The notes below the pieces were generated by a model. That model had not been told where the DNA came from, made no database searches, and saw only the letters and a program-made list of their open reading frames with translations. The position numbers were made by a program, and so were the translations under genes. This document shows positions 13,577-17,415 of a stretch of 64,000 bases of DNA, piece after piece. The first letter of the stretch is position 1, and the number at the start of each line of letters is the position of its first letter. Where the stretch lies: NCBI GenBank assembly GCA_017883205.1, contig JADGNZ010000019.1, positions 1 through 64,000 on the forward strand, in the 5' to 3' direction. This stretch comes from Thermoanaerobaculia bacterium. Its GTDB lineage: Bacteria > Acidobacteriota > Thermoanaerobaculia > Gp7-AA8.

Positions 13577-13930
13577 TTTCGTGCGTCCTGGTTACCGCAT
13601 CAGCCAACGGCAGAATCAGTGCGCCATTCGCCTCTTCGCACAGGAACGTCACCCGCACGACTCCCGCAGCCCCGCCTTCGATCTCGCGAATGCCGGGAAC
13701 CGCGCGCATGGATAAGGTCTGAAGTCGGAAGTAACCGAGTACCCTCCGACGTCATCGCCCCGTCATCGCTTGCACGCACTTCGCTGAGCACCCGATGAGA
13801 TCCGTCTCGCGCGCATGCGCGTCAGGCAATCTTCCGCATGCTTCAGACCTGATCCCGGCCCCACGCAATGGCTGGGGGTAGGGAAAACCCCGCATTCGGC
13901 CCTCCTTGTGTACAGCAGAAGGAGAGCGCG
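13577..13930. other. Intergenic stretch without recognised gene
   Basis: No convincing coding frame is present between the array and the glycosidase-like gene. The last 20 bp hold that gene's Shine-Dalgarno (AAGGAGAG, 13919-13926). A promoter for it is probably here, but no clear hexamers were picked out. Confidence 0.5.
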
Positions 13931-14923
13931 ATGAGATTCGGTGTCTGTTGGCAACCCCGCGTGTGGCACGGATGGGTACCTCCGATCCCCACGCCTGCAT
14001 CATGGCAGGCGGTGCAATCGGCCGGTATCACCGATCTGCGCTTGACCTACGATCCGGCGCTCACCGCGGGGCTGTTTGAGGCCGATCTGCGCAACGCATC
14101 TGCGGCCGGCTTCCGCATCAACGTGAACATGGGCCCGGTATGGGAGTCCGGCGGCGCGATGCTGATTCCGGATCCGGCAGTCATCGAAGCGCAGGCGTTC
14201 GATCTCGCCACCAAGTATGGCAACATGATCGCGCTTTACAGTTTCGACAACGAGCCCGGCGCGATCGCACAAAAGTACGAGAGCGCGAATCCGGGATCGG
14301 ACTTCATGCAGGTTGCTTACATGCCTGCATGTGCGGCGTTTGTGCGCGGCATCCGCCGAGTGGTCCCGAATGCAGTCATCGGTGGGTGCGACGCTGACAG
14401 TGTCGACATTCAGAATCGGTACATCGCGCAGGCGAACGCGCTCCTGCCGCTCGTCGTCTGCGACCGGCGGCGCGTTCATCCTTATGGCGACGTCGGCGGC
14501 GGGCGGTATGCCACGATGGCAGGCGATAACGAGAACGAAGGCTTCGCACAGGCAGTCGACCCTCGGCCGCTCGACGTCGGCGAGATCGATCATCAGCAGC
14601 TCCCGGGAGCAACCCCCATCGCTCGACCGAGCGACCTTCAGGCACTGCTCGACTTCACGCGGATGATCCACGCGAAGTATCCAACAGTCGGACAGATCGA
14701 CTACGGAACGGCTGAGTACTTCTTCACGCGTGTTCCGTCGCCGCCCGGGATCGTTCCGGCAACGACCTGGAGCACCTGGACGTTCGGGCCGGCGCCGGTG
14801 GTGTCGGACGCTGGACGGCAGTTCACGCAGTTGTTCCAGGCGATCAACGCGGGACAGCAACAGGCAGACGCGACCGCCGTCTCTCTGCCGGTCGTCGGCG
14901 GCGCCCGGATCGACGTTCAGTGA
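13931..14923 (+). CDS. Clan-A glycosidase-like TIM-barrel protein
   Basis: This 330-residue protein starts at ATG 13931, which follows a good Shine-Dalgarno; the frame is open further upstream without support. The pattern of short strands (FGVCWQPR, ITDLRLTY, RINVNMGP, IALYSFDNEPG) resembles a TIM barrel of glycoside hydrolase clan A. N107-E108 in FDNEPG would be the acid/base pair, and a later Glu in IDYGTAEYFFT is a candidate nucleophile. No signal peptide is seen, which is unusual for a secreted glycosidase. The substrate is unknown and the assignment is structural guesswork. Its last 7 bp overlap the convergent GT39 gene. Confidence 0.55.
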   Translation: MRFGVCWQPRVWHGWVPPIPTPASWQAVQSAGITDLRLTYDPALTAGLFEADLRNASAAGFRINVNMGPVWESGGAMLIPDPAVIEAQAFDLATKYGNMIALYSFDNEPGAIAQKYESANPGSDFMQVAYMPACAAFVRGIRRVVPNAVIGGCDADSVDIQNRYIAQANALLPLVVCDRRRVHPYGDVGGGRYATMAGDNENEGFAQAVDPRPLDVGEIDHQQLPGATPIARPSDLQALLDFTRMIHAKYPTVGQIDYGTAEYFFTRVPSPPGIVPATTWSTWTFGPAPVVSDAGRQFTQLFQAINAGQQQADATAVSLPVVGGARIDVQ

Positions 14924-16725
14924 GATTGGGCGCCCGTCTCCACATGCAGCAGTTGCACGGCCAGCGTGCGGGGATCCTGGTTGTGCATGAGAGTGCTGGG
15001 CTGGAACGACCGCGATGAGCGCAATCGCACGTCGATCCGCGGATCGGATGGCAGCGCCAGATTCACAACCACCGGATCCCTTCCGACGTGAAGGACGGCC
15101 GAATCATGGCCGTTGATTGAGATCGTCACGTCGTCGGTTGTGTAGGGCAGATCTCCCGGGATCCGCAGCGAGAGCGACGCCACGGCGCCGTGCGACTGCG
15201 GCAAACGAATGCTCGCATCGGGGCCGAGCCAGCGCCATTCGGTCCCCTCCAGCGTCCGCTCGATCGGATACGCACCGCTCAACGGGAGATAGCGCTCGGC
15301 CGGGAGCTCATTCTCGATTGTGACTTCCTGGTACAGACCGCGCGTGAGCTTCCGGTATGCGTCACTCTCCGGCCACGCGAACACGTGCGAGCTGGCACCG
15401 TGCCCACCACCATTCGCGAAAAGCACCAGCCCTGTTCCCGGCCGGTCATACGCCTCGGCGATCGCTTTGTCGACCGGAAGCAGCCGGAAGCGCGACATCA
15501 GATACTCCGCGTGCGGCTTCAGCGCGATGTCGTAACCGATCACGCTGTTCGGAGCGAGATTCGCCGTCGCCCACGCAGCGGCAGCGGCCGGCGGCGACGC
15601 CAGCTTCGTTCGCGTGCCGGCGAGCGGCCAGACAAACACGAGCGTCGCGGCCGCAAGAATCGCGGTGACTGCCCACGGAGCCGCGGCAAAGCCCGCACTG
15701 CGGCGGATCACGCCGAATCCGAGCGCCGCGAGAAGCGCGATGAACGGCATGAACGCCAGGCTGTAGCGCGATCCGTCCGCCGGATCCATCCAGCCGAGCT
15801 CGAAGATCACTTGCACGATGACGAAAGCGATGAACGGCAAGAGCGTTGAGCGCAGCGTGTCGCGGCGAAGAAGCCTGGCGAAGGCGGCGATGCCGAGGAT
15901 GACGCAGGCGAAGAGAGGGAGCGTCACGTACTTCCAGCCCCACGGATGAAAGATGAAGCGGACCACGAGCATCGCCGTCGACATCCCGCCGCGCGACACC
16001 GAGGCGTCGTGCGCGGCGACGTATTGCATCTGCTTCGTCTCGTAGAGCCACAACGCATTGAAACCGCCGGCAGCATCGGCGAGCGGCAGGAACCACATCA
16101 GCGACAAAAGTATGAAAGCAACGCTGCATGCGATGCGCTGCCGCAACGTCCGCATCTGCAACAACGCGATGAGCAGCATCGGCGCGATCGGGATGAGAAG
16201 TTGCGGACGCGTACCGATCGCGGCCGAAGTCCAGATGCCGATAGCGATGGCATTGCGCTCGTGCCTCTCACCGTGAGGACTACTGATCGCAAACAGCGCA
16301 AGCGCCACGAACATCATTGCCGGGCCGTCGGAGAGCGCGAGCGATCCGTGAACCAGCATCGACGCGGAGAAGTAGTAGAGCAGCGCGCCGCAGACAGCCA
16401 GGTCGGGATCGTCGATCCAGTTCCGAAAGGCTCGCGCCAGCGCGATGAATCCGATCGGCGCGGCGATGACGCCGAAGATCACGAGCGCGCGCCACGGATC
16501 GTGAATGAAGACGTTGAAGACCTTGCCGAGGATGACAAATAACGGGTAGCCGGGCGGATGCGGGTGGTACCGCGACGGATCGAAGTTCCTCACCGCCTCG
16601 GCGAACAGAAACTCGTCGTTTTCCCACGGCGTGCGCGGCATGGTGAGGATGCGCGACACCAGCACGATCACCGCGCCGAGCGCTTCGCGCCACCAGCCCC
16701 GTACAATCGCTCGTGTGGGATTCAT
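14917..16725 (-). CDS. GT39 (PMT/ArnT-like) membrane glycosyltransferase
   Basis: This 602-residue polytopic membrane protein has roughly ten hydrophobic segments up to about residue 370, then a hydrophilic periplasmic domain. The first loop carries WENDEFLFAEAV (N36, D37, E38), the acidic catalytic motif of family 39, followed by HPHPPGYPLFV, a signature of the family. Such enzymes move a sugar from a polyprenyl phosphate to lipid A, protein or another acceptor on the periplasmic side. With the GT2 and the YdjC deacetylase 1.8 kb away it could complete a lipid-linked amino-sugar pathway. Its start codon overlaps the divergent methyltransferase start. Confidence 0.85.
   Translation of the reverse strand: MNPTRAIVRGWWREALGAVIVLVSRILTMPRTPWENDEFLFAEAVRNFDPSRYHPHPPGYPLFVILGKVFNVFIHDPWRALVIFGVIAAPIGFIALARAFRNWIDDPDLAVCGALLYYFSASMLVHGSLALSDGPAMMFVALALFAISSPHGERHERNAIAIGIWTSAAIGTRPQLLIPIAPMLLIALLQMRTLRQRIACSVAFILLSLMWFLPLADAAGGFNALWLYETKQMQYVAAHDASVSRGGMSTAMLVVRFIFHPWGWKYVTLPLFACVILGIAAFARLLRRDTLRSTLLPFIAFVIVQVIFELGWMDPADGSRYSLAFMPFIALLAALGFGVIRRSAGFAAAPWAVTAILAAATLVFVWPLAGTRTKLASPPAAAAAWATANLAPNSVIGYDIALKPHAEYLMSRFRLLPVDKAIAEAYDRPGTGLVLFANGGGHGASSHVFAWPESDAYRKLTRGLYQEVTIENELPAERYLPLSGAYPIERTLEGTEWRWLGPDASIRLPQSHGAVASLSLRIPGDLPYTTDDVTISINGHDSAVLHVGRDPVVVNLALPSDPRIDVRLRSSRSFQPSTLMHNQDPRTLAVQLLHVETGAQSH
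16702..16707 (+). promoter_or_regulatory. -10 hexamer of the methyltransferase gene, inside the opposing CDS
   Basis: TACAAT lies 7 nt before GTG 16715 and inside the coding sequence of the divergent GT39 gene. It decides the start at 16715. Confidence 0.5.
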
Positions 16726-17341
16726 CCGCGCGTTAATCGTACTGCACCGCGTTTACGGCCGGCGTCCGCTGCGCGACCGCGTCCACACGCTCGTCCGCTT
16801 CCTCACCTGCCCGATGCTGCGCGTGCTCGACGCGGTGCCGCACTCTGCGTCACTGCTCGACATCGGCGCGGGCCACGGCGTCTTCGCAACGCTTGTTCGT
16901 GCGCGTGACGCGCGACGCGTCGTAGGCGTCGAGCCCGACGTGAGGAAAGTGCGGCCGATCGCCGGCGTGGAGTCAGTCATCGGCTTCGATGACGTCGTCA
17001 CCGGCACGTTCGACGCGATCTCGATCATCGATGTCCTATACAAGATTCCGATCGCCGATTGGGATGCGCTGCTCATTCGCTGCCGCGAACGTCTCGCTGT
17101 CGGCGGTATCCTCATCATCAAAGAACAAGACCCGACCGCGCGGATCAAGAACGCATGGAACGCGCTGCAGGAGCGGATCGCAACTGCGCTTCATCTCACG
17201 CTTGGCGAGTCCTTCACGTACGAGGCTCCTTCCGCCTTCCTCTCGCGCCTCACCCGCCTCGGCTTCCTGGAGGCTCGCAGCAAGCGTATCGATTTCGGTT
17301 ATCCGCATCCGCACGTGTTGTATGTGGCGAAAAGGCTCTAA
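16715..17341 (+). CDS. SAM-dependent class I methyltransferase
   Basis: This 208-residue cytoplasmic methyltransferase has SAM-binding motif I SLLDIGAGHGVF (46-57), an acidic residue at the next strand end in VVGVEPD, and a motif IV region ISIIDVLYKIP. The start is GTG 16715, chosen because a TACAAT hexamer lies 7 nt upstream; an ATG at 16631 would bury it deep in the opposing gene. The protein then begins MGFIRALIVLHRVYGRRP. The 5' end overlaps the divergent GT39 gene by 11 bp. The substrate is unknown; nearby glycosyltransferases hint at a glycolipid or polysaccharide. Confidence 0.8.
   Translation: MGFIRALIVLHRVYGRRPLRDRVHTLVRFLTCPMLRVLDAVPHSASLLDIGAGHGVFATLVRARDARRVVGVEPDVRKVRPIAGVESVIGFDDVVTGTFDAISIIDVLYKIPIADWDALLIRCRERLAVGGILIIKEQDPTARIKNAWNALQERIATALHLTLGESFTYEAPSAFLSRLTRLGFLEARSKRIDFGYPHPHVLYVAKRL
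16736..16741 (-). promoter_or_regulatory. -10 hexamer of the GT39 gene, inside the opposing CDS
   Basis: TACGAT on the minus strand lies 10 nt before ATG 16725 and inside the methyltransferase coding sequence. Confidence 0.4.
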
Positions 17342-17398
17342 CCACAGAGACACAAAGAGCACAAAGAAAACCCTTTGTGTCCTTTGTGTCTTTGTGGT
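17341..17398. repeat. CACAGAGA-family iterated hairpin
   Basis: A 26-bp stem with three mismatches (17341-17366 against 17373-17398) encloses a 6-nt loop. Each arm is itself an iterated word of the CACAAAGA type. It starts on the last base of the methyltransferase stop codon and lies between convergent genes, so a terminator role is plausible. Confidence 0.75.
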
Positions 17399-17415
17399 GA
17401 TGCTTCTAAGAAACC

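Follow-up and report, generated by a model that had tools for sequence, protein, structure and literature searches.

A methyltransferase gene and a glycosyltransferase gene that diverge from each other in the DNA analysed here most likely form a compact pair served by two -10-only, leaderless or near-leaderless promoters, which face each other within about 40 bp (probability about 0.75). The window, as we call the whole 64,000-nucleotide stretch that was analysed, comes from contig 26 of the 6.37-Mb genome G000, and the relatives named below are Thermoanaerobaculia or Acidobacteria metagenome-assembled genomes. We use MT for the plus-strand methyltransferase gene, GT for the minus-strand glycosyltransferase gene, and d for the number of nucleotides from a box to the start codon. 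The starts, boxes, spacing, codon constraint, uniqueness and alternative layout described below all rest on sequence comparison. The features of the locus are as follows.

16715..17341, plus strand: MT, a class I SAM methyltransferase of 208 aa with a GTG start (Pfam Methyltransf_23, 45.2 bits)
14917..16725, minus strand: GT, a PMT_2-type GT-C membrane glycosyltransferase of 602 aa with an ATG start (Pfam)
16715-16717, plus strand: MT start codon, GTG
16725-16723, minus strand: GT start codon, ATG
16715..16725, both strands: head-to-head coding overlap of 11 bp
16702..16707, plus strand: TACAAT, putative -10 box of the MT promoter, within GT codons (a TANNNT box is found at 15 of 17 MT loci)
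16736..16741, minus strand: TACGAT, putative -10 box of the GT promoter, within the MT codons ATC GTA (a box is found at 11 of 14 GT loci)
16713..16715, plus strand: predicted MT transcription start, leaderless or with a 2-nt leader, placed 6-8 nt past the -10 box
16725..16729, minus strand: predicted GT transcription start with a 0-4 nt leader, placed from the -10 position

The 11-bp head-to-head overlap between GTG 16715 and ATG 16725, first described in a sequence-only reading of this DNA, is exact in its coordinates, as are the positions it gave for TACAAT within the GT gene and TACGAT within the MT gene. The two boxes face each other with 28 bp between them, and lie 7 nt (MT) and 10 nt (GT) from the start codons they would serve. 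The label GT39, which that reading gave to the glycosyltransferase, is too specific: the Pfam match is to PMT_2 only (PF13231, 28.9 bits against a cut-off of 26.1, with a TMEM260-like match under its cut-off), and the GT protein matches no GT39-specific Pfam family and no PDB sequence at E<=1. A PDB sequence search with the MT protein returned a weak, generic methyltransferase match only.

Three further observations concern the edges of these genes. The 3′ end of GT (14917-14923) overlaps a convergent plus-strand ORF (13868-14923) by 7 bp, so GT overlaps ORFs at both of its ends. Directly after the MT stop, and ahead of a convergent response-regulator gene, lies a near-perfect palindrome (17341-17400) with a predicted RNA fold of -39.1 kcal/mol, whose 16-base core has three copies in a 1.24-Mb sample of the genome, two of them adjacent at C73 40.7 kb. 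The MT start itself reads GTGTG (16713-16717), with an out-of-frame GTG two bases upstream that is conserved in G001 and G002. In E. coli, initiation at GUGUG reportedly leads to translation of overlapping frames, going by the title of a paper on the subject (PMC9841429).

Both start codons are well supported by their conservation across species. The GT ATG at 16725 is the sole ATG, GTG or TTG in the open frame upstream of a conserved WWRE segment, and starting instead at residue 19, the next in-frame option, would cost the protein WWRE and some of its first hydrophobic stretch. The MT GTG at 16715 is aligned with the MT starts of relatives; the alignment begins at that codon, and relatives outside the overlap group share no sequence upstream of it. 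The sequence-only reading had named an MT start further downstream as the finding that would make the overlap an annotation artefact, and this is contradicted, since the next downstream start would lose the conserved N-terminus RALIVLHR...RFL.

The junction was studied in 17 MT loci (E about 2e-33 or better) out of 39 genomes with an MT match, the rest being set aside as remote methyltransferases. For GT, 62 genomes had a match, and the set was the 14 of them where a copy of the gene adjoins MT. Conservation of the overlap in relatives, which the earlier reading had proposed to check, is borne out by an overlap of 11-14 bp in five species of three genera. It measures 11 bp in all three members of the genus (G000, G001, G002) and 14 bp in G008 and G012, where MT is one codon longer; G009 has a GTG version with a 20-bp overlap. 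At eight other loci the starts are separated by 20-91 bp, for example by 45 bp in G010 and 91 bp in G006. Across the overlap species the ATG or GTG starts fall at equivalent sites.

It is very unlikely that the overlap is an annotation artefact in which one of the genes begins elsewhere. Divergent overlaps are indeed rare (PMC2174442), those longer than 60 bp in annotated genomes were reported to be start mispredictions in every case (PMC2478687), and a crude coding-score caller put the starts of this pair at 16671 and 16649 instead. However, no other start codon retains the conserved N-termini, and the starts of the relatives lie at equivalent places, each with its own box upstream.

The -10 boxes recur with the genes. 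The TANNNT box of the 15 MT loci lies within 40 nt upstream of the start, is mostly TATAAT or TACAAT, and stands at d 6-12 with no second, non-overlapping TANNNT in the same 40 nt. These distances were measured from the in-frame start nearest the box, and for G016, G005 and G030 a start codon 6 nt upstream of the script's choice was used. The plus box is missing in G009, and the contig of G017 ends at that place. On the other strand, TANNNT is found at d 6-11 before one start codon in 11 of the 14 GT loci, and is absent or unusable in G010 (owing to a repeat insertion), G006 and G016. In the five genomes whose GT ATG lies inside MT, the box is always 10 nt from the ATG, spelled TACGAT in three of them and TACTCT and TAGGAT in the others.

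Neither start has a listed Shine-Dalgarno pentamer within the preceding 14-15 nt. A sigma70 scan that requires a -35 element found 0 sites in 16400-17050 (expected 0.1), and hence a recognisable -35 for neither promoter; such a scan is blind to -10-only promoters. TANNNT-led leaderless genes carry the box about 6-9 nt before the start, a range that includes MT (d=7) and has GT (d=10) at its edge, and the 10-nt spacing points to a GT mRNA with about 0-4 nt of leader, not to a strictly leaderless one. The comparative evidence supports embedded -10 boxes and leaderless or near-leaderless expression of both genes. An earlier claim that the overlap is possible only if both transcripts are leaderless is thereby upheld as far as (near-)leaderless expression goes, but its "only" was overstated, as the anatomy also allows an upstream start within the partner gene.

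Such boxes are a general feature of this genome. In the 1.24-Mb sample of G000, which holds 929 genes as called by our own ORF caller, TANNNT before starts peaks at d=6-9 (56, 39, 42 and 39 hits). There are 23 hits at d=10 and 21 at d=14, and most other distances outside 6-12 give 7-18. Interior start codons in the sample have no TANNNT peak, and Shine-Dalgarno pentamers peak separately, at d=4-8. We estimate the TANNNT excess at about 130 boxes, or 14% of the sample genes (about one in seven), in line with the average of 13.3% reported for TANNNT-led leaderless genes in Acidobacteria (PMC3160421).

Against this background the layout at the MT-GT junction is singular. Searching the 6.37 Mb of G000 for this exact layout gives a single hit, as it does for G001 and for G002, and in each case the hit is the MT-GT junction; a reversed-pattern control had 0 matches in all seven genomes searched, so the layout is more than chance. 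A variant with three more bases is found at this junction in G008 and G010, and G002 has one copy of it at a different place. The sample contains 151 divergent pairs, of which 15 have boxes on both sides and just one, this locus, is overlapping, a count that is approximate because the crude gene caller misplaces starts. Three other predicted overlaps (C26 91182, C1 44480 and C1 63381) have a TANNNT box on neither side. At least three further divergent pairs have boxes that overlap each other: C1 203218/203242, C2 88094/88121 and C2 177352/177376 (L095:3218-3242, L105:8094-8121 and L109:17352-17376), with gaps of 23, 26 and 23 bp. We regard these three as candidate bidirectional leaderless promoters.

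The minus box has left a mark on the codons of MT. The MT codon that gives the TA of this box is NTA in nine of nine species of the window's clade and in none of six in the sister group (Fisher p=2e-4, with relatedness lowering the effective number of observations). Of the 345 other Val/Leu codons in the same nine genes, NTA accounts for only 9, and in G000 as a whole GTA makes up 8% of valine codons, and CTA and TTA 2% and 0.7% of leucine codons. We considered coding overlap as the cause of this bias and rejected it, since the codon is situated before the GT start and takes no part in encoding GT. Inheritance by itself accounts poorly for it too, because overall synonymous codon identity among these genes is about half. 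Counting against selection on the box, the NTA codon is also present in three genomes that cannot use the overlapping GT start (G006, G010 and G017), where it may serve a longer-leader transcript or reflect shared descent. Among members of the genus, synonymous codons are identical in 34/37 cases in the first alignment columns, against 225/408 elsewhere (p=6e-6). Taken over the five overlap genomes, the constraint is weak (63/95 against 612/1195, p=0.005), and clade B has lower conservation in these columns than in the others (43/100 against 790/1416), so that synonymous constraint appears strong only in the genus-level contrast. Judged by sequence, the face-to-face arrangement appears to be selectively maintained in the window's clade.

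These codons bear on the idea that only the plus promoter is real, that GT is driven by an unrecognised promoter deeper in the MT gene, and that TACGAT is incidental. The spacing of 10 nt on the minus side speaks for this, as do a minus box that is less consensus-like than the TACAAT of the plus side and the three of 14 GT loci in which that box is not usable. We nevertheless consider it unlikely, since the contrast of nine out of nine against none out of six falls exactly at the TA of the box and outside the GT coding region, the distance from box to ATG is fixed at 10 nt in the five overlap genomes despite their differing hexamers, and the GT ATG lacks a Shine-Dalgarno sequence. Some of the same observations also count against the pair of face-to-face promoters that we prefer, namely the minus spacing at a distance with 23 hits as opposed to 39-56 at d=6-9, the loss of the minus box in three of 14 GT loci together with the missing plus box of G009, and the want of a -35 on either side.

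Relatives carry the same gene pair in other layouts. In G014, G005 and G003 (ATTCTATAAT), and likewise in G013 and G004 (ACTATAAT), MT and GT diverge from two overlapping -10 boxes placed back to back, with starts 28-30 bp apart at these five loci. The MT tree separates the five back-to-back species (83/97) from nine species of the window's clade (80/91), and the support of only 80/91 for the latter counts against our main reading. In G010 (L005), a palindromic repeat is inserted between the MT and GT starts and closes the old overlapping GT frame, with both old boxes and the old ATG still present despite the insertion; because this element parts the two starts, the embedding is not indispensable. 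The insertion is built of a 7-bp tandem unit, TCCTGAG, and its 16-base word has 353 matches in G010, 362 in G017 and none in G000 and G002. The palindrome of G010 and G017 looks like a genus-specific repeat expansion.

Gene neighbourhoods vary as well. On contig C221 of G003 (L037), two GT copies flank MT, one divergent and cut by the contig end, the other convergent, which suggests a local duplication. In G093 and G030 (L009 and L010), from another family of the class, MT has a TATAAT or TACAAT box 7 nt before an ATG, and the region divergent from it reads, by its translated motif, as a family-2-type glycosyltransferase.

The transcription start sites, leaderless translation, steric exclusion and low promoter strength that make up the proposed mechanism are inferred. 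A sigma70-type polymerase would recognise either -10 box without a -35, and the two promoters would fire toward each other over about 40 bp. The MT and GT mRNAs would each start at, or a few nucleotides before, their own start codon; neither gene would then need upstream room for a Shine-Dalgarno leader, and so the coding sequences could overlap by 11 bp. For each -10 box, the partner gene would supply the letters by using rare synonymous codons, and the 5′ ends of the two mRNAs would be complementary over about 11-17 nt. The sister clade would drive the same pair from one shared core with two overlapping, back-to-back -10 boxes. The footprint of an initiating polymerase spans about -55 to +20. 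Given this footprint and the spacing of the boxes, two initiating polymerases would probably clash, with binding in only one direction at a time, and as the two could not initiate together the promoters would in practice share one binding site. At basal strength each gene would most likely yield its own low-level mRNA independently of the other, and the promoters would compete only upon activation of one side.

The sequence-only reading had gone further, proposing that the polymerases exclude each other and that the locus is a built-in switch. Mutual exclusion would follow from the geometry, given the polymerase footprint above. The switch, in which overlapping promoters serve mutually exclusive expression of MT or GT, found no support: the locus has no sign of feedback, bistability or anticorrelation, and at bidirectional promoters in the literature there is little competition at basal activity. 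The geometry would bar simultaneous initiation, competition is described as the principal way in which overlapping promoters interfere with each other (PMC6593788) and is reported to arise when one direction is activated (PMC12825309), and tightly packed promoters are kept in both clades despite the changed geometry. In contrast, all five of the E. coli bidirectional promoters tested in one study had little basal competition (PMC12825309), the divergent leaderless pair prpD/Rv1129c of M. tuberculosis is induced together (PMC3898074), the starts lie as far apart as 45 bp (G010) and 91 bp (G006) in relatives, and no regulator site or feedback is known at the locus. We find a switch distinctly improbable.

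The functional reading favoured within our main explanation, with which it is not mutually exclusive, is compaction only, and we hold it to be reasonably probable. Leaderless genes need about 13 bp upstream, and the two starts would have slid over each other by drift and deletion with no regulatory effect, the constraint being the upkeep of each promoter. This covers all of the data without extra assumptions: TANNNT-led genes are common in this genome, and other two-box divergent pairs, with their overlapping boxes and gaps of 23, 26 and 23 bp, are nearly as tight. What tells against it is that, among the 151 divergent pairs sampled, just one combines boxes on both sides with an overlap, so sliding into overlap is not frequent. 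A more ambitious but doubtful proposal is that a single-occupancy promoter site was kept through a geometric inversion, back to back in one clade and face to face in the other. If it were true, polymerase exclusivity, and hence anticorrelated MT and GT expression, would be a conserved trait enabled by leaderless translation.

Divergent overlaps are strongly under-represented in prokaryotes, which the authors of a survey attribute to the upstream regulatory elements that such genes require (PMC2174442). Two face-to-face, -10-only promoters would offer an escape from that limit, as all that a leaderless gene requires upstream is a -10 box just a few bases away, and this box can be spelled in synonymous codons of the neighbour. 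A prediction follows: phyla with a larger fraction of leaderless genes should also have more true divergent overlaps. M. tuberculosis, which is rich in leaderless genes (PMC3898074), is reported to have a raised level of divergent overlaps in one phase class (PMC2174442). With one gene pair in three promoter layouts (back to back, face to face and repeat-separated), the locus and its relatives form a natural series for the study of polymerase competition.

Several known systems resemble this arrangement in part. In an excludon, a long antisense 5′ leader runs over a divergent gene; we rejected this class for the present pair, whose transcripts are predicted to overlap at their 5′ ends by only about 11-17 nt, with no long antisense leader. 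TANNNT-led leaderless genes, reported in Actinobacteria, Deinococcus-Thermus and Acidobacteria (PMC3160421; PMC3898074; PMC12340547), have the same -10-like box about 12 bp before the start codon, no -35 and no Shine-Dalgarno sequence, but these accounts, as far as they were available to us, describe no pair in which each box lies within the coding part of a divergent partner gene that overlaps its own. The bidirectional promoters with a shared -10 element described by Warman, Grainger and colleagues (PMC12825309, PMC10268837) likewise produce two opposite transcripts from one polymerase-sized site. Their overlapping-box form is matched, at the level of sequence, by the sister-clade loci and by at least three other pairs in G000. 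At the window locus the boxes are 28 bp apart, neither shared nor overlapping; they face each other, and the transcripts overlap at their 5′ ends rather than leave a shared core. Divergent starts at the Warman-type promoters are given as 7-25 bp apart on opposite strands; the predicted starts in the window would be crossed over.

Face-to-face promoters with transcriptional interference (PMC6593788) resemble this locus, where two opposing promoters are predicted within one footprint and competition would be expected, but here both transcripts are predicted mRNAs with their start codons inside the overlap. The divergent overlapping pairs of genome surveys (PMC2174442, PMC2478687) are also head to head, the rarest overlap class; the overlap in the window differs in that it is short, is kept across genera and has a specific promoter anatomy to explain it. 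Among open-licence PMC papers listed by searches and judged by title and abstract, we recognised none on leaderless promoters that are each embedded in the other's gene where divergent starts overlap. In M. tuberculosis, divergent promoters in close juxtaposition are said to be common (PMC3898074), and given those data such pairs probably sit, not singled out, in published start-site tables.
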